Of a stretch of 32,394 nucleotides of DNA, positions 86 through 12,097 are shown in pieces. The stretch is from positions 1 to 32,394 of the forward strand of contig JAUNKK010000028.1 of assembly GCA_030532825.1 (NCBI GenBank), written 5' to 3'. The notes under the pieces are model-generated. The model was not told the DNA's origin and did not search any database. It was given only the letters and a program-made list of their open reading frames with translations. This DNA comes from Propionibacteriaceae bacterium (lineage in GTDB: Bacteria; Actinomycetota; Actinomycetes; Propionibacteriales; Propionibacteriaceae). The position numbers were made by a program, and so were the translations under genes. Position 1 is the first letter of the stretch. Each line of letters starts with the position of its first letter.

Positions 86-1327
86 TTAATGGTCCTGCTC
101 CACCCAGCGCAGCACGCGGCCGCTCGCCCCAACCACGATGAGCGCAAGGACCGCCAGCGCCACCCACGGGGCCACGGCCAACGGTCCCGGGACGCGGGCC
201 CATTCGAGCAACGCCCCGATCGGCGCCCCCGTCACGAGCACCGCCAGTCCCCCAATCGACGACATGACCCCCATGTGCGCCCCCAGTTGGCTCTCCCGGG
301 AGAGATGGCCGACGGTGTCGCGGGCGCGGGGTTGCACGGCCATGAAGCCGACATGGAGCAGCACCACGAACAGCACTTTCGGCAGCGCCCCAAACACCCC
401 GCCGGGCGAGGGAACCCAGGCTACGGCGGCGATCACCAGGAAGGCGGCGGCCGTGCACAGGTGGGCCAGCCGGAACACCCGCGTGGTGGAAAGCCGGTCC
501 ATGGCACGCGTGAGGCTGGACTGCGTGGTGATCACCAAGGCCGAGGCGAGCAGGAAATACCACGTGATGGTCGCTGAGTCATCCTGGCTACGGTGGATCT
601 CCACCGGCAGGGCCAAATACATCTGGTTGTAGGCGATCAGCTGCACCAGGTTCAGGGCGGCGAAGGCCAAGAAGCGTCGGTTGCGGAATACCAGCCGGAA
701 GGACTGAGCAAGGTTCGTTCGCGCCCCGACGCGCATTCGGGCTGGTAGCCAGATCGCGTGGATCACCCCGATGATGGCGAACAAGCCAGCGGCGATGAGG
801 CAGGTGGTCTGGAAGGGAACGAACAGCACGATTCCCCCGAGAGCGGGCCCCACAGCAGACCCCGCCTGGGAAAAGACCTGTTGCAGACTCAAAACCTGCG
901 TCCGCGGCGGCCCACCCGCTGCCGCCGTCGTCCTGGCCAAGCCCATGATGGCTGACTCGGACGCGGGCGAGAACAGCGCGGCAGCGAGGCCGATGAGCAC
1001 CACACCCACGACGATCCACAGCAGCTCCCGCGTGGCCGCTAGGGTCGCGAACCCGACCACCCTGATGCCGATCCCCACCAGCAGCACCGGCTTGATTCCG
1101 AGCCAGTCCGATAGGGCACCGCCGAGGAAGAACAGCCCCTGCTGCGAGAAGGTGCGCAGCCCCAGGATGATCCCGATCAGCACCACCGCCAACCCCAGGT
1201 CGTCTTCCAGGTAGGCGGCGAGGAACGGCACCACCAAGTAGAACCCGACGTTGAACGCGAACTGGGTGGCGATCAGCAGCCCCAGCGGGTGGGGCAGGCG
1301 GCGAAACATCCTGATGTCGTTGATCAT
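86..1327 (-). CDS. MFS transporter, 12-TM, last complete gene of the transporter operon
   Basis: A 413-residue major facilitator superfamily protein. Hydrophobic segments run throughout, and the loop after helix 2 carries a motif-A-like sequence (GGALSDWLGIKPVLL, about residue 69). It is predicted to sit in the cytoplasmic membrane as a proton-coupled transporter, most often an exporter in this type. It starts 9 bases after the stop of the upstream ATPase gene, so it is co-transcribed with the ABC importer. The order importer, two ATPases, MFS recalls the staphylopine locus, where cntE exports the metallophore that CntABCDF re-imports. That parallel is inference from gene order only. The substrate cannot be read from the sequence. 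An alternative start is Met7. Confidence 0.85.
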   Translation of the reverse strand: MINDIRMFRRLPHPLGLLIATQFAFNVGFYLVVPFLAAYLEDDLGLAVVLIGIILGLRTFSQQGLFFLGGALSDWLGIKPVLLVGIGIRVVGFATLAATRELLWIVVGVVLIGLAAALFSPASESAIMGLARTTAAAGGPPRTQVLSLQQVFSQAGSAVGPALGGIVLFVPFQTTCLIAAGLFAIIGVIHAIWLPARMRVGARTNLAQSFRLVFRNRRFLAFAALNLVQLIAYNQMYLALPVEIHRSQDDSATITWYFLLASALVITTQSSLTRAMDRLSTTRVFRLAHLCTAAAFLVIAAVAWVPSPGGVFGALPKVLFVVLLHVGFMAVQPRARDTVGHLSRESQLGAHMGVMSSIGGLAVLVTGAPIGALLEWARVPGPLAVAPWVALAVLALIVVGASGRVLRWVEQDH

Positions 1328-1336
1328 CGCCAGTTG

Positions 1337-2086
1337 TCAGGCCAGGTCGATCAGGAGCTTGGTGTAGTCGTCGGCAGGGTTGGCGAGCACCTCTTGGGTG
1401 GGGCCCTGCTCAAGGATGCGTCCATTCTTCATGACCGCGATGCGATCGGCCAGCTGGGAGACGACGGCGATGTCGTGGCTGATGAACAGCATCGACAGCT
1501 CCTGTTCCCGCCGCAGCTGGACAAGTAGGTCCAGGATGCTGGCCTGAACGGTGACATCAAGCGCCGAGGTGATCTCGTCGCAGATGATGAGCGCCGGCTC
1601 CGCCAGCAGGGCCCGGGCGATCGCGACTCGCTGCGCCTGCCCGACGCTGATGGCGTGCAGCCCGCGCCGCAGGATCTCCTCTGGCAGGTTGACGCGCTCC
1701 AGTATGGTGTGGATCGCTGCCCATTGTTCCTCCGCGCTGCGGCGAAGTTTGTAGATCAGGGGTTCCCGCAGCGCGTCCGCGACCCGCATCCGAGGGTTGA
1801 AGGAGGTGCGGGGATCCTGGAACACCATCTGAAGGCGTCGCTGATGAGCCCGTCTGGATCGGCCTCGGGAGGCGTGCAACTGCCGACCTTCCAGCGCGAC
1901 CGTGCCGGCAGTGGGCACCACGGTCCCGGCGATCATGCCGGCGAGAGTGGACTTGCCACTGCCGGATTCCCCGATCAGCCCGAAGCACTCCCCCGCCGCA
2001 ATGTGCAAGGACGTCTCGTGGACGGCCTCGACAAGCCCATGGCGTCCCGGGAAGACCTTGCGCACCTCGTTCACCTCAAGCAGCAT
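1337..2086 (-). CDS. ABC transporter ATPase, oligopeptide/nickel type (DppF/OppF/CntF-like)
   Basis: ATP-binding subunit of an importer of the peptide/nickel/opine class. Visible motifs are Walker A (GESGSGKST, about residue 40), a signature written SVGQAQR in place of the usual LSGGQ, Walker B with catalytic Glu (LIICDEITSALD) and the switch His (FISHDI). The C-terminal HPYT motif typical of the class is changed to DDYT. I chose ATG at 2086 because it has a GGAG seven bases upstream and yields the standard start MLLEVNEV; an in-frame ATG at 2125 adds 13 residues unlike the family. It overlaps the previous ATPase gene by 11 bases, indicating translational coupling. It should form a heterodimer with that ATPase under the fused permease. 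Confidence 0.9.
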   Translation of the reverse strand: MLLEVNEVRKVFPGRHGLVEAVHETSLHIAAGECFGLIGESGSGKSTLAGMIAGTVVPTAGTVALEGRQLHASRGRSRRAHQRRLQMVFQDPRTSFNPRMRVADALREPLIYKLRRSAEEQWAAIHTILERVNLPEEILRRGLHAISVGQAQRVAIARALLAEPALIICDEITSALDVTVQASILDLLVQLRREQELSMLFISHDIAVVSQLADRIAVMKNGRILEQGPTQEVLANPADDYTKLLIDLA

Positions 2087-2882
2087 CGGGAATCTCCAGC
2101 TTGGGTATGGCTGCGACCAGCGCACGGGTATACGGGTGCTTCGGCTCTACCAGAACCTTCTCGGGCGGCCCCGTCTCAACGAAACTGCCATCCGCCAGAA
2201 TGTGGACCGTGGAGACCAGCCGTTTCACCAGGGAGATCTGATGGCTGACGAACAGCACCGCGGTCCCAAACTGCGAAGCCGTGTCGGCCAGCAGGTCCAG
2301 GACTTCCGCCTGGGCACGCACGTCAAGGGCACTGGTCGGCTCGTCGGCCAGCAGCACTCGTGGTTCGCTGAGCAAAGCCATGGCGATGGCCGCGCGCTGC
2401 GCCATCCCACCCGAGAGCTCGAAGGGGAAAGCACTCAGCACGGCATCCGGGTTGGTGAACCGCAAGCGGCGCAGCAGATCCCGAGCCGCGGCCTGGCAGC
2501 CCCGGTGTGAAACCCGAGGGCTGTGCAGTCGTACCGACTCGGTGAACTGCTTTCCCACTCGGATGAGCGGGTCAAAGCTCGCCAGCGGACGCTGGAAGAC
2601 CATCGTCAGTTCAGGGCCGCGGAGCCGCCGCCAGTCCTTCGGTGTGAGATGAGTCACCTCAGTGCTCTGGTACCGGATGGCGCCGTCACGCACCGTCAAG
2701 CCGCCCTGGCGCAGCCCGAGCAGGCAGGACAGGAGCGTGGACTTCCCACCGCCGGATTCTCCGACGATGCCGACCAGTTCCCCGCTCGCGAGGCTGAGAT
2801 CGATGCCGGAGATGACGTCCGGCTGGTCGAGGTAGCCGGCCCGCAGACCGGCCACCTCTAGCACCTTTTGTTCATTCGACAT
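2076..2882 (-). CDS. ABC transporter ATPase, oligopeptide/nickel type (DppD/OppD/CntD-like)
   Basis: First of two different ATPase subunits of the importer, 268 residues. It shows Walker A (GESGGGKST), the signature LSGGMAQR, Walker B (VLLADEPTSALD), the switch His (FVSHQI) and the C-terminal motif KHPYTRAL that defines the oligopeptide/dipeptide/nickel class. The protein is shorter than most DppD proteins, which extend further past the HPYT motif. It overlaps the binding-protein gene by 11 bases at its start and the second ATPase by 11 bases at its end. No strong Shine-Dalgarno sequence is visible, which fits translation coupled to the gene before it. Substrate specificity does not reside in this subunit. 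Confidence 0.92.
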   Translation of the reverse strand: MSNEQKVLEVAGLRAGYLDQPDVISGIDLSLASGELVGIVGESGGGKSTLLSCLLGLRQGGLTVRDGAIRYQSTEVTHLTPKDWRRLRGPELTMVFQRPLASFDPLIRVGKQFTESVRLHSPRVSHRGCQAAARDLLRRLRFTNPDAVLSAFPFELSGGMAQRAAIAMALLSEPRVLLADEPTSALDVRAQAEVLDLLADTASQFGTAVLFVSHQISLVKRLVSTVHILADGSFVETGPPEKVLVEPKHPYTRALVAAIPKLEIPDAA

Positions 2883-4401
2883 GGGTCTCGTGGGTCAGCA
2901 GGTGATACTCGGTCGGCAGGATGTTGAGCCCCTTGACGCTGGCATCCGAGACGACCCACCACTGCGCGTGGCCGTACGGAACGACGGGCAGGTCACTCAG
3001 GGCGATTTGCTTCAGCATACGCGTCTTCTCAAGACGCTGTTCCGGGTCGAAGGTAGCCGCCAAGTCGTCCAGCGCGGCATCCAGTTCCGCGGACGAATAG
3101 TGGGCAAAGTTGCTCTCGCCGCCGGTGCGCAGCATGGTCTCGAAGAAATACTGCGGATCACCCGTGGGGGCCATGGCGAACGAGTACATGCCGATTTCGT
3201 ATTCCCCGGACTTCATCTGATCGGAGGTGGACGGGAGTTCGCTGATCTTCACGTCGACGCCGATGGTGGCCATGTCGGCCTGGAAGAGTTGTGCCATTTG
3301 CCCCAGCTGCGGCCGTTTCGGGTAGGTCAGCAGCCGCAGCGTCAGCGGCTGGTCGTCTTTGACGAGCTTCCCATCCGTCTCGGTATAGCCCATCTCAAGG
3401 AACAGGGCTTTGGCTTTGTCAAGGTCCTTGGCATTGACTTTGAGGTTCAGGCCCTCGGTCCCACCGAAGACCACGCTTTCGGGGAATAGGGCGTAGGTGT
3501 CTTTGCCCATGGCGTTCATCACCGAAACGTAGCCATCACGGTCGAAGGCGTAGTCGATGGCCTCGCGCGCTCGGGGATCGCTGGTGATGGGACTCGTGGT
3601 GTTGAGGATGGCCGTGTCGGCGCGGGTGGAGGTGACCTGCCAGGTCGTGTAGCGAGAGGGGTCGGAGAAAACCGCGAGGCCGGAGGCCTCGGGCTGCACC
3701 GCGACCTGAATCTCACCGGACTGCAAGGCCAGCCCCATCGCTTGCAGGTCGCTGTAGGCACGCCAGGTGACGTGGGTCAGTTGGGGTTTGCCACCCCAAT
3801 AGCCCTCGTAGGCATCCAACTCCAGTTTCTGCGTGGGCGTGAACTCGGTGACCTTGAACGGGCCCGTGCCCTGGGGGGCAGTCACCGGGTCGATCCCCTC
3901 GCCAATGGCCTGAATCCCGGTCATGGGGTCGCTGAGGATGCTGGGGAGCGCGGCCACCGGGGTTTTTGTGGTGATAGTGAGCGTCTGGCCGTCGGCAGTC
4001 ATCGACTCGATGGGCAACTGCGCCTGGGCTCGAACGTTAGTCGCGATGGCGTATTCCAGGGATGCCTTGACCGCTGCCGCATCCATTGGGTTGCCATTGT
4101 GGAAGGTCACCGCATCACGCAGGGTGATCTTCCAGGTCATATCGTCGGTGTTTTCCCACGCGGTGGCCAGCTTGGGGACCAGATTCAGTTGGTCATCGAC
4201 ATCGACCAGGGTCTCGGTGATGCCATCGCGTGAGTTGTACCAGCCGATGTAAGCCGAGGCGGCGTCCAGGGACTCGCCACGGTCAATGGAGCCATAGGTC
4301 AGCGTGGTGGTGGTTTCTTTGGGGGCATCGGCGGAGCCGCCGCAGCCAGACAGGAGCATGGCCGAAGCAACGGCACCTGCCAGGAGTGTTCTGAGTTTCA
4401 C
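2872..4401 (-). CDS. ABC transporter substrate-binding lipoprotein, family 5 (SBP_bac_5)
   Basis: Extracellular binding protein of the importer, 509 residues. The N-terminus is a lipoprotein signal with lipobox LLSG-C20, so it should be lipid-anchored to the outer face of the membrane. The mature part shows family-5 features such as the conserved segment TWKITLRDAVTFHNG near residue 90. Family 5 binds peptides, nickel or cobalt chelates and opine metallophores (OppA, DppA, NikA, CntA). Which of these applies cannot be read by eye. The GTG start overlaps the permease stop in a GTGA junction, and an AAAGG lies about ten bases upstream. Under a cobalamin riboswitch, a cobalt complex, metallophore or corrinoid ligand is more likely than peptides (inference). 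Confidence 0.92.
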   Translation of the reverse strand: MKLRTLLAGAVASAMLLSGCGGSADAPKETTTTLTYGSIDRGESLDAASAYIGWYNSRDGITETLVDVDDQLNLVPKLATAWENTDDMTWKITLRDAVTFHNGNPMDAAAVKASLEYAIATNVRAQAQLPIESMTADGQTLTITTKTPVAALPSILSDPMTGIQAIGEGIDPVTAPQGTGPFKVTEFTPTQKLELDAYEGYWGGKPQLTHVTWRAYSDLQAMGLALQSGEIQVAVQPEASGLAVFSDPSRYTTWQVTSTRADTAILNTTSPITSDPRAREAIDYAFDRDGYVSVMNAMGKDTYALFPESVVFGGTEGLNLKVNAKDLDKAKALFLEMGYTETDGKLVKDDQPLTLRLLTYPKRPQLGQMAQLFQADMATIGVDVKISELPSTSDQMKSGEYEIGMYSFAMAPTGDPQYFFETMLRTGGESNFAHYSSAELDAALDDLAATFDPEQRLEKTRMLKQIALSDLPVVPYGHAQWWVVSDASVKGLNILPTEYHLLTHETHVE

Positions 4402-6323
4402 GTGGTTGTTACCTTTCTTCTCTGTATCGGATCAGCATTCGCGGACAGCACTTCCTGAGAAGCATCCGCAAACAAATTGACGATCAACGTCACGAGCAGG
4501 AGGACCAGCCCGGGCCCAAACACCAGCCACGGCGCCACCTGCAAATAGGAACGGCCTTCGCTGATCATGGTTCCCCACTCGGACGTCGGCTGCGGCAGAC
4601 CAAGGCCGACGAAGGAAAGAGTGGCTAGATTCAGGATCACGCTCCCGAGGCTGGAGGCGGCCATCACCAGCAGGGGGCTGCCAATGTTGGGCACCATGTG
4701 GCGAACGAAGATTCGAATACCGGGGACGGCATTCATGCGCGCGATTTGGATATAGGGGGCTTGCTTGACCTGAAGGGTGAGGATGCGGGCATAGCGGGCA
4801 ATGCCCGTCCACGACGCCAGGGTCAGAGCCGCCACGGCGCTGACGAAACCCGGGCCGAACATGGCGGCGAAGGCCAACGCCAGAATGAACTCCGGGAAGG
4901 ATTGGAAGACGGCTGTGATTCGCTGAATAACGGCGTCCACGACCCCGCCAGCGAGGGCCGAGACCACCCCGATGATGGTGCCAAGCACCAGAGCGCAGCA
5001 CACCACCGTCAGCGCCACCGACAGCGTGGGACGGATGCCCGCGAGCACGCGGGAGAAGACATCGCGGCCGAGGTTATCGGTGCCGAGCCAGTGCACGGCC
5101 CCTGGAGGTTGGAGGGCCGCCGTGATTTCGGTGGCATTGGGGTCATAGGGCGTGATGAGATGAGCGACCAGTGCGATGACGGCGATGGCTCCAACCGCTC
5201 CCACGAGGATCCGCCAGGCGAGCCGCGGGGAGAGCCGAGCCAACACCTGCTTTCGCGGTTTGGGCAACATCGACGACGAACTAAGCGTTGCCAGATCGGG
5301 ATGCTGGATGGTCACCGGTTCGGTTGGCTCGTCACCATCAGCCCGAGCGGATCGCCGAGTCACACCGACGCGGGACTGCTCACTCAGCCGAGGGTCGAGG
5401 AAAAAGGCCAGCAGGTCCGCCACCGTGTTGGCGACGAGGAACACCAGGGCGCACCACAGCACATAGGCCTGGATGACGGGGTAGTCCTTGGCTTGGATGG
5501 CGCCGAGGGCATAGTTGCCGATGCCCTGCCAGGAGAAGATGGCCTCGACCACGGCGGAGCCCGCAAGCAGTGCGCCGAAGCTGGTGGCGCCCAGCGTGCA
5601 CATCGGAGCGGCGATGTTCCGCACGATGTGCAGCCCCACCCGCGCCTCCCCCATGCCCCGGGTCCGCAACCCGGCCGCGTAGGGTTTGTCGAACTCCTCC
5701 AGGGCGATGGCACGGATCTGGCGGATGTACCAGCCGACCATCGCCAGGCTGAGGGTGAGGGTGGGCATGATGATGCCTCGCAGGTCCTGTGAGGCAGAAA
5801 TCGGGAAGAGCCGGAGTCCCATGCCGAGGATCTGCAAGACCAGCAGGGCGAACAGAAAGCTCGGCACCGCCGAACTGACGTAGCTCAGGAAACGGGCAAC
5901 CTGGTCGAACAGGCTGTGGGGCCGCGCGGCCGCCGCGATTCCGACGGGCAGGGCCACCAGCCAGGCGAGTGCCAGGGAGGCGGTGGTAAGCGCCAACGTC
6001 AACGGTAGTCGCCGAAAGAAATCGGCCATGATTTGGGTGCCGTTGCTGAGCGATGTACCCAGGTCGCCATGCAGCAGCCGGCCAAGCCAATTCAGGTATT
6101 GGTCCAGCACTGGTTCGTTGAGCCCGAGTCTGTCCCGCATGAGCTCGATCATTTCGGCGGTGGGCTGGACGCCTTGAGCGGTGAGCATGTTCTCGGCGAG
6201 GTCACCGGGGGTCAGGTAGGTCAAAACGAATGCGAGGACGCTGACTCCAAAGAGCACCAGCAGTGTGTTGGCGACCCAACTCAGCAAGCGACCGAGCAAG
6301 GTCGATGAGAAGAAACGGCCCAT
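4398..6323 (-). CDS. Fused ABC permease (DppB-like plus DppC-like halves in one chain)
   Basis: A single 641-residue protein holding both membrane subunits that are normally separate. Residues 1 to about 315 are a DppB/NikB-type permease: first helix near 15-38, conserved YLTPGD, and EAA loop around 217-236 (GLRTRGMGEARVGLHIVRN). Residues about 316-365 form a hydrophilic linker rich in Arg, Asp, Ser and Pro. Residues about 366-641 are a DppC/NikC-type permease: conserved WLGTDNLGRDVFSR near 412 and a second EAA loop around 528-546. There is no stop or frame break between the halves. It is the first gene of the operon. GAGGAG lies three bases before ATG 6323, about 20 bases after the riboswitch. 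Confidence 0.9.
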   Translation of the reverse strand: MGRFFSSTLLGRLLSWVANTLLVLFGVSVLAFVLTYLTPGDLAENMLTAQGVQPTAEMIELMRDRLGLNEPVLDQYLNWLGRLLHGDLGTSLSNGTQIMADFFRRLPLTLALTTASLALAWLVALPVGIAAAARPHSLFDQVARFLSYVSSAVPSFLFALLVLQILGMGLRLFPISASQDLRGIIMPTLTLSLAMVGWYIRQIRAIALEEFDKPYAAGLRTRGMGEARVGLHIVRNIAAPMCTLGATSFGALLAGSAVVEAIFSWQGIGNYALGAIQAKDYPVIQAYVLWCALVFLVANTVADLLAFFLDPRLSEQSRVGVTRRSARADGDEPTEPVTIQHPDLATLSSSSMLPKPRKQVLARLSPRLAWRILVGAVGAIAVIALVAHLITPYDPNATEITAALQPPGAVHWLGTDNLGRDVFSRVLAGIRPTLSVALTVVCCALVLGTIIGVVSALAGGVVDAVIQRITAVFQSFPEFILALAFAAMFGPGFVSAVAALTLASWTGIARYARILTLQVKQAPYIQIARMNAVPGIRIFVRHMVPNIGSPLLVMAASSLGSVILNLATLSFVGLGLPQPTSEWGTMISEGRSYLQVAPWLVFGPGLVLLLVTLIVNLFADASQEVLSANADPIQRRKVTTT

Positions 6324-6352
6324 GAACTCCTCGCTTGTTAGCTAACCGGACA

Positions 6353-6445
6353 TGTCGGGTGCAGGTCGGGCTCGCCTTGGGGAGGCATACCGTTGCGGAG
6401 CAACTCCGGATTCGCACCGGGATCCCAACGCACAAGGTGAGCCTA
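6353..6445 (-). promoter_or_regulatory. Cobalamin (adenosylcobalamin-type) riboswitch
   Basis: Read on the minus strand, the leader of the transporter operon has the conserved core of a cobalamin riboswitch. The segment CCGGTGCGAATCCGG (about 6406-6420) forms the P3 hairpin with its conserved GGTG.GAATCC. It is followed by CTCCGCAACGGTA, matching the CCCGCAACTGTA region. A B12-box-like sequence follows, AGCCCGACCTGC (6361-6372), a few bases shorter than consensus. CTCACCTT (6434-6441) can pair with AAGGCGAG (6371-6378) in seven of eight positions, closing the junction as P2 does. It ends about 30 bases before the start codon, so control of translation initiation is likely: cobalamin would shut off the operon. 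Confidence 0.8.
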
Positions 6446-7936: not shown

Positions 7937-10050
7937 TCCACCTGGTTCATAACCTCAGCGATCCGGCGGGGCAGATCGGCCTGATAGACATCCTCCAAAC
8001 GCAGGTTTCGCCCATCGGCATCCGCCAGAGGCACACGCCAGTTCGGGTATTCATCCATGGTGCCGGGCTGGTTTTGGGCGCGTTTCTCGCCGACGGCGTC
8101 CGCTAAGGAGGCGACGAGTACCTTGGAGTTCGTGAGCTTGAGGTAGCGGTGCAAGGCCACCATCACCTCAGGGTTGTCGTCTGCGCGGGCTGGGTCCAGA
8201 ACGCCGTGGTCGATCAGCCGGGCGACCCAGAAAGCGCGTTCCCGCTCGGCAGCAGCCAACTCGTCGGCGACCGGCTCAAGCAGCAACCCGAGTTGCTCGC
8301 GCAGCCTGACGTGCTCCCCCTCCAGATACCCGAGGGTCGGCGGCAGGTCATGGGTGGTGACCGAGGCCATGCAGTACTCTCGCCAGTGTTCGGGTGGCAA
8401 TACCTGACCATCGGAGCCGTATTCCCACCACAGCACGGCGGTGCCGAGTAGGCCGCGTCGGGACAGGTATTCGCGCACCCAGGGCTCGACCGTGCCGAGG
8501 TCCTCCCCCACCACCAGTGCCTGGGCGCGGTGAGCTTCCAGCGCCAAGATCCCGACCAGCGCATCGTGGTTGTAGCGAACATAGGTGCCACCGACGGGAC
8601 CCAAGCCCTGTGGCACCCACCACAGCCGAAACAGCCCGATGATGTGATCGATCCTCAGCCCCCCGACGCGCCGCAACGCTGCCCGCACCATGGCCTGGAA
8701 GGGCTCGTAGGCCAGTTCCTCCAGCTTGAGGGGATTCCAGGGCGGCTGGCCCCAGTCCTGTCCACCCTGGTTGTACTGGTCCGGCGGGGCTCCGACGGTG
8801 ACACCGGCCGCGAAGACCTCCCGCATCAACCACGTCTCGGCGCTGGCGGCACTGACCCCGACCGCCAAGTCAGCCAGCACCCCCACCCCCATGCCGGCTT
8901 CTTCTGCCACCGTCTGGGCCGACGAAAGCTGCTGCTGGGCCACCCACTGCAGCCACTCGAAGAACTCCACGCGCGGGGCACGTTCGGCTGCGAACTCAAC
9001 TGTCGCGGCCGACCGCGGGTCCTGAAACTCCGCGGGCCACAGCCGCCAGTCGGTGCCGTGCACCTCAGTGAGCGCGCACCAGACGGCGAAGTCTCTGAGG
9101 GCTTGGCCGCCGTCGCGCCGAAAAGCGGCGAACGCAAGTTGCCTGGCGTCGCGTCGCTTGACCTTGAACACCTGCCACAGGGCGGTGCTCTTCACCTCCC
9201 AGATGCCGCTGCGGTCGATCCCAGTCCCGTCTCCCTTGACTGATTTGCGCAGTTTGCGGATGCGGCGGCGCTCTTCGTCGTCTAGCTCGGCATACTCGGG
9301 GACCGCCTCGGGACGGATATAGAGAGGACTGAGGAAACGGCGACTCGACGGCAGGTACGGCGACGGTTCAATGGGCGGCGCGGGCTGCGAGGCGTGCAGC
9401 GGGTTGACCAGCAGGAACCCGGCCTGCTGGTCGCTGCCGGACCAGGTGGCCAAATCGGCTAGATCCTGGAAGTCGCCGAAACCCCACGACCGTTTCGAGG
9501 TGACGCTGTAAAGTTGCGCCGAATACCCCCAGACGCGGTTCCCACGCATCCCGGGCGGGAACCCGACGTGGGTCGGCGTGACGATGAGCGTGGCCTCCGC
9601 CAGGCCCTCGGCGGTGGTGCAGGCGAGGCGGTGGTATCCGAGGGGCAGATCGTCCGGCAGTTCGAACGACGCCTCACCCCGCAGTTGCCCGTCTAGCTCG
9701 CGATCCGGGGTCCAGTTGTCCACCTGAGTTGCGGACTGTCGTTCGCCGTTCTCAAGGACCACGACCAACTCGGCCGACGATCCGGCGGGCAAATGCACGG
9801 CCACCGTGGTGTTTTGGCCCTGCTCGACGACGGTGCATGGCGGCAGGACCCGTCGCCACGCGGCCTCGTCCAGGGCGACGAGCGCCTGCTGGCAGGCCTC
9901 GGGTGAGCTGGCATCAATCCCCATCGCCCCCAGCACGGCCACGATCGTCGTCGCGGAAATCTCGGTGTGGTGTCCCTTCCAGTCCCAGAACTCTCGGGCT
10001 ATCCCGAGGCGCTCGGCTAGGTGCTCCAGTTCGGCCGTGAGCTGTGACAA
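7933..10050 (-). CDS. malQ: 4-alpha-glucanotransferase (amylomaltase)
   Basis: A GH77 enzyme that transfers maltosyl and longer glucan segments between alpha-1,4-glucans and releases glucose, in glycogen and maltodextrin metabolism. The 705-residue size is that of the actinobacterial form, which has an N-terminal beta-rich extension before the catalytic barrel. Catalytic landmarks are GLRIDHIIGLFRLWW (nucleophile Asp), VVGEDLGTVEPWV (acid/base Glu) and TTHDLPPTLGYL (third carboxylate). Translation most likely starts at TTG 10050, with AAGGAAAG about seven bases upstream. The RDD gene ends 24 bases before it on the same strand, so the two may be co-transcribed. Confidence 0.95.
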   Translation of the reverse strand: MSQLTAELEHLAERLGIAREFWDWKGHHTEISATTIVAVLGAMGIDASSPEACQQALVALDEAAWRRVLPPCTVVEQGQNTTVAVHLPAGSSAELVVVLENGERQSATQVDNWTPDRELDGQLRGEASFELPDDLPLGYHRLACTTAEGLAEATLIVTPTHVGFPPGMRGNRVWGYSAQLYSVTSKRSWGFGDFQDLADLATWSGSDQQAGFLLVNPLHASQPAPPIEPSPYLPSSRRFLSPLYIRPEAVPEYAELDDEERRRIRKLRKSVKGDGTGIDRSGIWEVKSTALWQVFKVKRRDARQLAFAAFRRDGGQALRDFAVWCALTEVHGTDWRLWPAEFQDPRSAATVEFAAERAPRVEFFEWLQWVAQQQLSSAQTVAEEAGMGVGVLADLAVGVSAASAETWLMREVFAAGVTVGAPPDQYNQGGQDWGQPPWNPLKLEELAYEPFQAMVRAALRRVGGLRIDHIIGLFRLWWVPQGLGPVGGTYVRYNHDALVGILALEAHRAQALVVGEDLGTVEPWVREYLSRRGLLGTAVLWWEYGSDGQVLPPEHWREYCMASVTTHDLPPTLGYLEGEHVRLREQLGLLLEPVADELAAAERERAFWVARLIDHGVLDPARADDNPEVMVALHRYLKLTNSKVLVASLADAVGEKRAQNQPGTMDEYPNWRVPLADADGRNLRLEDVYQADLPRRIAEVMNQVD

Positions 10051-10762: not shown

Positions 10763-12097
10763 CTAATGGACGGAATCGTGGACAGGCCCAATTCGCAACG
10801 AGGACACGACCGCAAGCCCTGCCGCCACCAGCAGGATCAGGAAAATCCATCCGAAGGTCGGCTGATTGGCCGCGAGCAAGGCCGCGTAGGTGGCTCCCGT
10901 CACCGCGGTCAGCACCGAATTGCCGATGCTTTCCGAGACTTGCAACGCCCCGGAATTGCGTCCCTGCTCCTGTGTCCCAGACAGCGCCATGGTCGCCACA
11001 GCGGTGCTCGACATGGTCAGTCCCATCCCGAACCCGGCGACGGTCCACGCCACCATCCCGGCCCACAGCGGCACGGCAGTCCAGATGACGAAGGCGGTGA
11101 GTGCTGCCATGGCGGCGGCTACCAAGGCCGCCCCCAGGGTGATCAGTTGATCGCGGCGCAGGCGTACCCAACTGCGAGACTGCAGCCAGGAACCGGCGGT
11201 CCAGCCGAGACTACCGATGGTGAGCGCCAGGCCCGATTGAAAGGTGGTGAGCCCACGGAGGTTCTGCAGCCCGAGCAGCAAGAACGCCTCCCCCGCGTAG
11301 AACGCGCCGGCTTGCAGGGCTCGGGAGGCGACGATCGGCCCCAGGCCGGGACGAAGGCTCCGGACCCTCCGGGGCAAAGCTCGGGTCATCCCCAGCAGCA
11401 GGGCCAAAACGCCCCCCAAGGTCGCTGCGGCTGCCCAGAGGCCCTGCACCTGTCCAGCGATCTGCAACAGGGCAGGGGCACCTGCCACGGCGACAATGGC
11501 CCAGGCCGGGATACGTCGAGCGCCGGGATCAGGGGTGTAGCGGTTCTGCACCGCCCGCAGGTGTGGCAGAACCAACAGCCCGGCCGCCAGCAGCAGCGGC
11601 AGCGTCGATGCGAAGGTCAACCGCCAGTTGATCTCGACCAGCACCGCCGAGACCAGCGGACCCAGGAACGCCGGAAGCACCCAGCAGAAGCTCAACATCG
11701 CCAAGACCGACGGGCGCCGCTCCGCCGGAAAAGCCAAGGCAATCACCACGAACAGACTCAGGTTGAGGGCTCCCACACCCAATCCCTGGACGAAGCGCGC
11801 CACCAGCACCGTCGTCACGTCTGGCGCCACGGAACCGATGACCAAGCCCCCCAACAGGAGGGAGAATCCGGTCAGTGTCGGACGCAGCGGCCCATGCCGG
11901 TCGCAGTATTGGCCAGCGGTCAGCGTAGCGGCCAGCATCCCGATCACCAGTGCGGAGAAGGCCCACGGATAGAGCCGTTCCGCGTGCAGGGAGGCCATGA
12001 CTCGCGGCAGGGCAGCGGCGACGCCGATCATCTGAAAGGCCATCGCGAATACAGCTAAGAGCAACCCCGCCAGCAGGCCACGTGTCCCCTGGCTCAT
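10763..12097 (-). CDS. MFS transporter, drug-efflux-like
   Basis: A 444-residue major facilitator with hydrophobic helices throughout. A motif-A-like sequence (GQYCDRHGPLRPTL) follows helix 2, and the segment FVQGLGVGALNLSLFV matches motif B/C regions of drug:H+ antiporters. It may export a small molecule or drug; the sequence gives no substrate. The ATG at 12097 has a weak GGGAA about seven bases upstream. It is divergent from the DUF3039 gene with only 35 bases between start codons, so their promoters overlap. It probably leads a short operon with the RDD gene and possibly malQ. Confidence 0.85.
   Translation of the reverse strand: MSQGTRGLLAGLLLAVFAMAFQMIGVAAALPRVMASLHAERLYPWAFSALVIGMLAATLTAGQYCDRHGPLRPTLTGFSLLLGGLVIGSVAPDVTTVLVARFVQGLGVGALNLSLFVVIALAFPAERRPSVLAMLSFCWVLPAFLGPLVSAVLVEINWRLTFASTLPLLLAAGLLVLPHLRAVQNRYTPDPGARRIPAWAIVAVAGAPALLQIAGQVQGLWAAAATLGGVLALLLGMTRALPRRVRSLRPGLGPIVASRALQAGAFYAGEAFLLLGLQNLRGLTTFQSGLALTIGSLGWTAGSWLQSRSWVRLRRDQLITLGAALVAAAMAALTAFVIWTAVPLWAGMVAWTVAGFGMGLTMSSTAVATMALSGTQEQGRNSGALQVSESIGNSVLTAVTGATYAALLAANQPTFGWIFLILLVAAGLAVVSSLRIGPVHDSVH

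Follow-up and report, generated by a model that had tools for sequence, protein, structure and literature searches.

The window analysed here, a 32,394-nucleotide stretch of DNA from a Propionibacteriaceae bacterium, is the entire contig C194 of a 3.33-Mb draft genome (G000, the organism's own genome; hereafter, L numbers denote loci and G numbers the genomes compared). Its minus strand carries a five-gene operon that, in our reading, is repressed by cobamides through a compact riboswitch and imports a cobalt-type metal, with an exporter of the major facilitator superfamily (MFS) as partner; we put the probability of this reading at roughly 0.64. A sequence-only reading of the same DNA had placed a cobalamin riboswitch before a Nik-type importer operon that also contains an MFS gene, and had raised cobalt uptake as a candidate task. 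Both points are supported: cobalt uptake is the likeliest task, given the placing of the binding protein with Opp5A and NikA and the corrin genes of the genome. The parts of the system are as follows.

6440–6445, minus strand: TAGGCT, a putative −10 element just upstream of the aptamer, read from the sequence, with a presumed promoter role.
6354–6433, minus strand: compact cobalamin riboswitch aptamer, with P2 arms GTGC (6433–6430) and GCAC (6362–6359), P3, P5, P6, P7 and the box GAGCCCGACC; matched by the covariance model R1 (see below).
6327–6331, minus strand: AGGAG, the Shine–Dalgarno sequence of the permease gene.
4398–6323, minus strand: fused NikB–NikC-type permease, 641 amino acids, with two BPD_transp_1 stretches (Pfam) and NCBIfam matches to Opp2B and Opp2C.
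2872–4401, minus strand: family-5 solute-binding lipoprotein of the Opp5A/NikA type, 509 amino acids (SBP_bac_5, 245.2 bits; Opp5A_nikA; PDB 3t66; lipobox).
2076–2882, minus strand: ATP-binding cassette (ABC) ATPase 1, 268 amino acids (ABC_tran, 93.2 bits; oligo_HPY, 30.3 bits; Walker A GESGGGKS; LSGGM).
1337–2125, minus strand: ABC ATPase 2, 262 amino acids (ABC_tran, 110 bits; Walker A GESGSGKS; signature ISVGQ).
86–1327, minus strand: MFS transporter, 413 amino acids (MFS_1, 90.6 bits; GSAVGPALGG motif at residue 156).

The five open reading frames are tightly packed between positions 6323 and 86, with adjoining frames overlapping or lying nine bases apart. All five genes named earlier (a permease, a family-5 binding lipoprotein, two ATPases and an MFS protein) were recovered as open reading frames with the expected Pfam families, the permease proving to be a NikB–NikC fusion. 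The gene order and the leader are kept in two other genomes (L027 and L028), at protein identities of 66–78%. The contig ends 85 bases beyond the MFS gene, so a further operon gene is possible.

The minus-strand leader is a well-supported, genuine compact member of the cobalamin riboswitch class, for which cobamide binding is predicted. This call is carried by model score and covariation, not by the stability of the fold. We built a covariance model, R1, from 22 compact cobalamin riboswitches (six from the organism's own genome, five from G190, five from G057 and the remaining six from another six genomes of the genus); the window and both orthologs were kept out of it. R1 matched positions 6428–6354 of the minus strand at 50.8 bits (E 1.6e-12, 160 kb searched) and the orthologous leaders at 58.8 bits (L027) and 61.0 bits (L028), whereas the top non-riboswitch match in the same search reached 11.8 bits. 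In the R1 alignment, a pairing model named by hand (P3, P5, P6 and P7; 14 pairs) is filled by standard pairs in 95.3% of cells, and ten pairs vary on both sides. Its covariation score of 0.477 compares with a mean of 0.122 after shuffling (0 of 500 shuffles as high) and with at most 0.105 when the model is slid, although the shuffle test overstates significance because the R1 sequences are related. Because R1, built without the window or its orthologs, scores highly and its alignment covaries, we take the leader to be a real compact riboswitch. Short P2 arms can also be seen by eye in all three leaders (GTGC/GCAC in the window, AGCG/CGCT in L027 and AGC/GCT in L028), and hexamers resembling TAGGCT lie upstream of several paralogous leaders.

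The check proposed with the sequence-only reading, a run of Rfam RF00174 on the leader, gave a divided result: the gathering score was not reached, which in the terms of that reading would have counted as a refutation, and R1 from other relatives accepted the leader. We do not take the Rfam outcome as one. The RF00174 alignment places its 3′ part on bases other than the B12-box-like GAGCCCGACC. The orthologous leaders likewise fall below gathering, at 29.0 bits with RF00174 (L010, on the contig of L027) and 41.6 bits with RF01482 (L011, at the place of L028). Rfam was therefore dropped as the sole judge of a riboswitch here, as R1 accepts all three leaders. Across the organism's own 3.3-Mb genome, R1 found 11 places at E ≤ 0.1, with the window at 3.3e-11; the other ten coincide with the ten RF00174 matches (nine above gathering, one at 27.8 bits), and six of these ten are R1 members. 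The genome thus has 11 cobalamin riboswitch places including the window, two of which (the window and C147:15589) lie under the Rfam gathering score. Compact cobalamin riboswitches of this bacterial family can therefore miss the threshold of the standard model, and B12 regulons in the family are probably under-annotated.

The importer is placed by its binding protein, which carries the lipobox LSGC at residue 17. Among NCBIfam models, Opp5A_nikA scored best (357.9 bits), followed by nikA (145.7), CntA (106.9), DppA (66.4) and OppA (46.6). The top PDB matches were the nickel-binding proteins 3t66 (214.5 bits) and SaNikA (4ofj, 161.7 bits), with DppA (85.0 bits) and 5yh5 (73.8 bits), which we take to be CntA, behind. 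In both rankings the protein is thus closest to NikA/Opp5A, ahead of DppA, OppA and CntA. The best NCBIfam models for ATPase 1 were CntF, NikD and CntD, and those for ATPase 2 the dipeptide ATPase, OppF and NikE, all below cut-off. A Dpp/Opp peptide importer with no connection to metals, accompanied by a drug-efflux MFS as passenger, could draw on superfamily membership and on the one ATPase that fits the dipeptide-transporter model best. However, the comparison of the binding protein with profile models that the sequence-only reading had suggested brought no clustering with DppA or OppA (66.4 and 46.6 bits against 357.9 for Opp5A_nikA), and the MFS recurs in several layouts, which makes such an importer highly improbable. 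As an observation on the second ATPase (1337–2125, minus strand), ISVGQ stands in the position of the ABC signature, for which the consensus is LSGGQ, and the same letters are found in both orthologs.

B12 control is widespread in the Opp5A-type importer group. We scanned one genome per species, kept the best 80 of 280 relatives of the binding protein and, for 37 of the 80 loci, searched the genome with RF00174. Contig coordinates decided which locus a riboswitch match belonged to, and each assignment was then checked against the presence of a B12 box in the DNA of that locus; six placements (L038, L039, L049, L063, L064 and L065) were confirmed by scanning the locus itself, and matches that lay in range by number but on other contigs were dropped by eye, the box being absent. 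RF00174 stood above its cut-off directly before the operon in 21 of the 37 loci. These comprise seven of eight Paenibacillus loci (L038–L044), a Dermatophilus metagenome-assembled genome (L063, permease 63% identical), Piscicoccus (L067) and 12 clostridial loci (L047–L049, L051, L052, L055–L057, L064, L065, L069 and L074); L056 is counted despite a weak box, and leaving it out would give 20 of 37. A match below cut-off was found in two more, the two orthologs. In Piscicoccus, a homocysteine methyltransferase-like gene (L067, 664–1749) comes first after the riboswitch of the Nik-type operon. Because RF00174 lies directly upstream in 21 of 37 Opp5A-type loci, the operon of the window probably encodes a B12-repressed cobalt-type importer, a placement that we make from sequence. 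Predictions of such importers go back at least to 2009 (PMC2667541).

The organism itself probably makes the corrin ring and needs cobalt, because its genome contains a CobS gene and a CbiF/CobM corrin-ring gene above cut-off (331 bits, C73:4225–4971), the latter downstream of a riboswitch. Consecutive genes for CbiM, CbiQ and an ABC-type ATPase follow a cobalamin riboswitch (C147; L033, 9944–7414). They form a recognised cobalt transporter set, and their position supports the idea that this organism places cobalt uptake under B12 control. The genome also encodes, at one end of contig C84, a second Opp5A-type binding protein (L004, 2–868) preceded by a canonical cobalamin riboswitch (76.5 bits); of its operon, only the first gene is on that contig.

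Two other substrates can be set against cobalt. Cobalamin riboswitches often serve corrinoid transport, so the binding protein might take cobinamide or another corrinoid as BtuF does, with the MFS handling a B12 precursor or lower ligand; the ability of NikA to bind haem, noted in the accessible part of PMC2667541, would fit this. Several Peripla_BP_2 and FecCD genes (the BtuF and BtuC families) already stand beside other riboswitches in the genome, however, and the nearest solved relatives of the binding protein are nickel-binding proteins, so a corrinoid importer seems unlikely to us. A nickel importer that stands behind a B12 riboswitch by chance would account for the nickel-transporter names of the closest families. 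It is nevertheless a quite improbable explanation, as cobamide control in 21 of 37 related loci fits cobalt and not nickel, the argument that PMC2667541, in the part available, makes for Clostridium tetani and Desulfitobacterium hafniense.

The fifth gene encodes the MFS, which we infer from its sequence to be an exporter. Its family profile matches chains of the solved exporters NorA, LmrP, EfpA and, presumably, QacA, all of which we take to be proton-driven exporters, and we likewise take GSAVGPALGG to be the antiporter motif. Its score with the NCBIfam model MdtH, 120.7 bits, lies below the cut-off of 469, so that the protein does not qualify as an MdtH member. Another MFS gene of the window (10763–12097, minus strand) gave no significant BLASTP match to the first (E 4.9) and has no riboswitch match nearby.

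An MFS gene after two ATPases recalls the opine metallophore system cntKLMABCDFE, in which the importer genes close with two ATPases and an MFS gene comes last (PMC9598555, as far as accessible). The sequence-only reading had drawn this parallel. Taken in full, it would make the MFS a CntE with a staphylopine-like opine as its export, whose cobalt complex the ABC system would retrieve. This part of the reading did not survive. The MFS gave no match to the CntE model (NF047574) at E ≤ 10, in a search in which the HMMER filters drop most matches above about 0.1, whereas the same model recognised two MFS proteins of Paenibacillus L189 at 697 and 392 bits. Compared directly with the first of these, the window MFS scored 22.3 bits (E 0.022, a single comparison), with a profile probability of 22.6%. 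The binding protein reached 106.9 bits with the CntA model against a cut-off of 800. The opine dehydrogenase family PF10100 was found in 0 of 13 actinobacterial genomes, including the organism's own, and the same search was positive in seven of eight Paenibacillus genomes. Furthermore, two Paenibacillus genomes (G202 and G205) contain both a Cnt-type and an Opp5A-type operon at different places, the Opp5A-type with a riboswitch and the Cnt-type without one at the gathering score or with R1. In L189, the Cnt-type operon has a CntA-type protein and two CntE-type MFS over cut-off, and CntL and CntM types below it. The binding protein of the window is 33–37% identical to the Paenibacillus Opp5A-type proteins (L038–L045) and 23–24% identical to the Cnt-type ones; the window thus resembles the riboswitch-bearing Opp5A-type operon, not the riboswitch-free Cnt-type operon. 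Membership of the opine/Cnt group was ruled out on these searches and on the closer likeness to the Opp5A-type operon; an opine shuttle is largely refuted, and we consider its probability close to negligible.

The MFS recurs as a partner of Nik-type importers in several genomic settings. Relatives at E ≤ 1e-50 occur in 17 of 293 genomes of the order, the organism's own included. All three genomes with the gene order of the window (layout A: the window, L027 and L028) have the MFS in the operon. In a second arrangement (layout B: ATPase–ATPase–MFS–solute-binding protein (SBP)–permease–permease) it lies inside the operon in L132–L135, L137 and L186, and ATPase–ATPase–MFS–SBP also occurs in L126–L128, with leaders beyond the DNA examined. 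Of the layout-B operons, two have a riboswitch in front, L132 (RF00174, 30.6 bits; R1, 74.4 bits) and L134 (RF00174, 33.0 bits; R1, 79.9 bits), both of these riboswitches being R1 members; none was found before L133, L135, L137 or L186. An apparent fusion of MFS and SBP in L132 (an open reading frame of 879 amino acids) was rejected: the MFS is in another frame, and in this GC-rich DNA the SBP frame happens by chance to stay open further upstream. In L118, L119, L120 and L123, a lone MFS gene lies right behind a riboswitch (RF00174, 29.9–38.6 bits, one of the four above gathering). In Piscicoccus (L067), an MFS that is 47% identical is convergent to the B12-controlled Nik-type operon, and a riboswitch (8499–8706) lies on the MFS strand about 0.5 kb upstream of its conserved part.

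Within the genus, the MFS is present in 11 of 39 genomes, seven of which have a Nik-type importer in cis (two with layout A, G000 and G190; five with layout B, G134, G036, G105, G180 and G192) and four of which have the MFS alone (G070, G147, G159 and G174). An Opp5A-type operon without MFS (SBP–permease–permease–ATPase–ATPase) occurs in six of the 39 (G000, G070, G095, G147, G159 and G174). G147 and G174 show the complete gene order; in G095 one permease half is missing from the BLAST rows, in G070 and G159 the region of the first gene was examined, and in G000 the contig holds the first gene only. These operons lie behind canonical riboswitches as well, at 76.5–96.0 bits with RF00174 in G000 and the four lone-MFS genomes and at 46.6 bits with R1 in G095. 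A separate B12-controlled Opp5A-type operon is therefore found in all four lone-MFS genomes, compared with one of 28 genomes without the MFS.

Between layouts A and B of the genus, the MFS proteins are 48–51% identical (39% in G180), compared with 36–44% for the ATPases and 23–31% for the SBPs. That the MFS is more conserved between layouts than the importer parts points to one kind of exporter having been combined with different importers. The gene hisG lies upstream of the lone MFS in four of four cases (L118, L119, L120 and L123) and upstream of three of the six layout-B operons (L132, L133 and L186, not L134, L135 or L137), a pattern that would fit the loss or gain of importer genes around an MFS that stayed in place, at a shared site that holds either the MFS only or the full operon. 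Counting pairings in cis and in trans, this kind of exporter appears to have been joined to three or more different importer operons. Its recurrence as a partner of such importers is new and apparently undescribed within the literature searched; no MFS of this kind is described in the titles and abstract openings covered, a negative that is weak evidence of novelty, as sources were covered in part.

Since the MFS keeps appearing with such importers, whether in cis or in trans, it may well serve the same task. A pure cobalt efflux pump would be unlikely, because the MFS is itself predicted to be repressed by B12. Most likely the MFS would either release a small metal-binding molecule, possibly a non-opine cobalt chelator, for the importer to take back, or rid the cell of another metal or metal complex that comes in alongside cobalt and is not wanted. 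A complete B12-repressed cobaltophore cycle, in which a small cobalt chelator other than an opine leaves the cell through the MFS and comes back as its cobalt complex through the Opp5A-type importer, is a tentative idea that we hold to be somewhat unlikely. No paper on a dedicated secreted cobalt chelator was found in the literature searched, of which coverage was partial. The words 'cobaltophore' and 'cobalophore' do not occur in it, and no paper there joins cobalamin riboswitch, metallophore and cobalt, most subscription papers being outside its coverage. If such a cycle exists, some Propionibacteriaceae and Dermatophilaceae would forage for cobalt only when B12 is short. The recurrent exporter partner makes the cycle testable, and an MFS clade tied to B12 control and Nik-type importers offers a genetic handle on whether bacteria make a secreted cobalt chelator.

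A number of results weigh against reading the operon as a B12-repressed cobalt importer with an exporter partner. As regards control, the window contains no match to any Rfam family at gathering score, and the leader itself obtains only 15.4 bits with RF00174 (E 0.11 in 501 bases; gathering 31.5). The minimum-energy fold of 122 nucleotides is no more stable than shuffled sequences (z +1.05), and pairing of the P5 loop with the Shine–Dalgarno sequence is no better than with shuffled downstream sequence (fractions of 0.37 in the window, 0.64 in L027 and 0.39 in L028). No riboswitch was found before 14 of the 37 Opp5A-type loci (L037, L045, L046, L050, L053, L054, L058–L062, L066, L070 and L078), the upstream part being shortened by a contig end in L046 and L054. 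As regards the metal, the binding protein (357.9 of 600 bits for Opp5A) and the permease halves (Opp2B, 328.2 of 350; Opp2C, 273.2 of 300) miss the curated NCBIfam cut-offs, so that the metal is not readable from the family, and the CbiM–CbiQ–ATPase set and L004 would make this operon the second or third such system of the organism, not the sole candidate. As regards the partner, three of the five layout-B operons of the genus are without a riboswitch, and G095 lacks the MFS although it has a B12-controlled Opp5A-type operon. In the tree, all four lone MFS genes fall into a single clade, so that pairing in trans may reflect one event. No relative of the window MFS was found in the Bacillota loci examined, and in three genomes of another family (L129–L131) an MFS relative stands without an importer gene in the 4 kb seen and without a riboswitch.

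Taken together, the evidence favours cobamide-controlled cobalt uptake, for which we propose the following sequence of events. When cobamide is plentiful, the aptamer (6433–6354) would fold and expression would stop, perhaps at the start of translation. Translational control is proposed because the Shine–Dalgarno sequence is within reach of the P5 loop, whose best pairing partner in RNAduplex overlaps it in the window, L027 and L028. When B12 is scarce, the binding lipoprotein, the fused permease and the two ATPases would be made, and the importer, judging from its regulation and family, would supply the organism's own corrin synthesis with cobalt, taken up either as the free metal or in complex with a small chelator. 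Between riboswitch and permease, the ortholog L027 has a 25-codon frame starting with GTG (1217–1294), the stop of which overlaps the permease ATG at 1291. Upstream of the operon in the window lies a divergent nicotinate phosphoribosyltransferase gene.

Compared with known systems, the MFS shares family-level similarity and the GSAVGPALGG motif with the exporters MdtH, NorA and LmrP, presumably of the DHA type, but lies far below the MdtH cut-off, and many of its relatives adjoin B12-controlled importers. The leader has the P3, P5, P6 and P7 core, CCGCAACGGT and the B12-box-like element of RF00174 and of the AdoCbl riboswitch RF01482, but it is far shorter between P7 and the box, has no long P1–P2 and falls below the gathering score, and it resembles the other compact riboswitches of the same bacterial family. 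With the Cnt/staphylopine system (PMC9598555, in its accessible part; Paenibacillus copy L189) the operon shares an importer and a terminal MFS, but its genome has no opine dehydrogenase, the MFS is not CntE and the binding protein is not CntA; control is predicted to be by B12, compared with Zur and Fur for Cnt. A parallel in task is offered by the NikABCDE systems of C. tetani and D. hafniense, which, in the available part of PMC2667541, stand behind B12 riboswitches and are set apart from nickel-specific members; in Table 2 of that source, the row for Actinobacteria (40 organisms) has no NikABCDE. Both they and the window operon combine a Nik-type importer, a cobalamin riboswitch and predicted cobalt uptake, whereas the window operon is actinobacterial, has a fused NikBC permease and a compact aptamer missed by Rfam, and includes an MFS gene.

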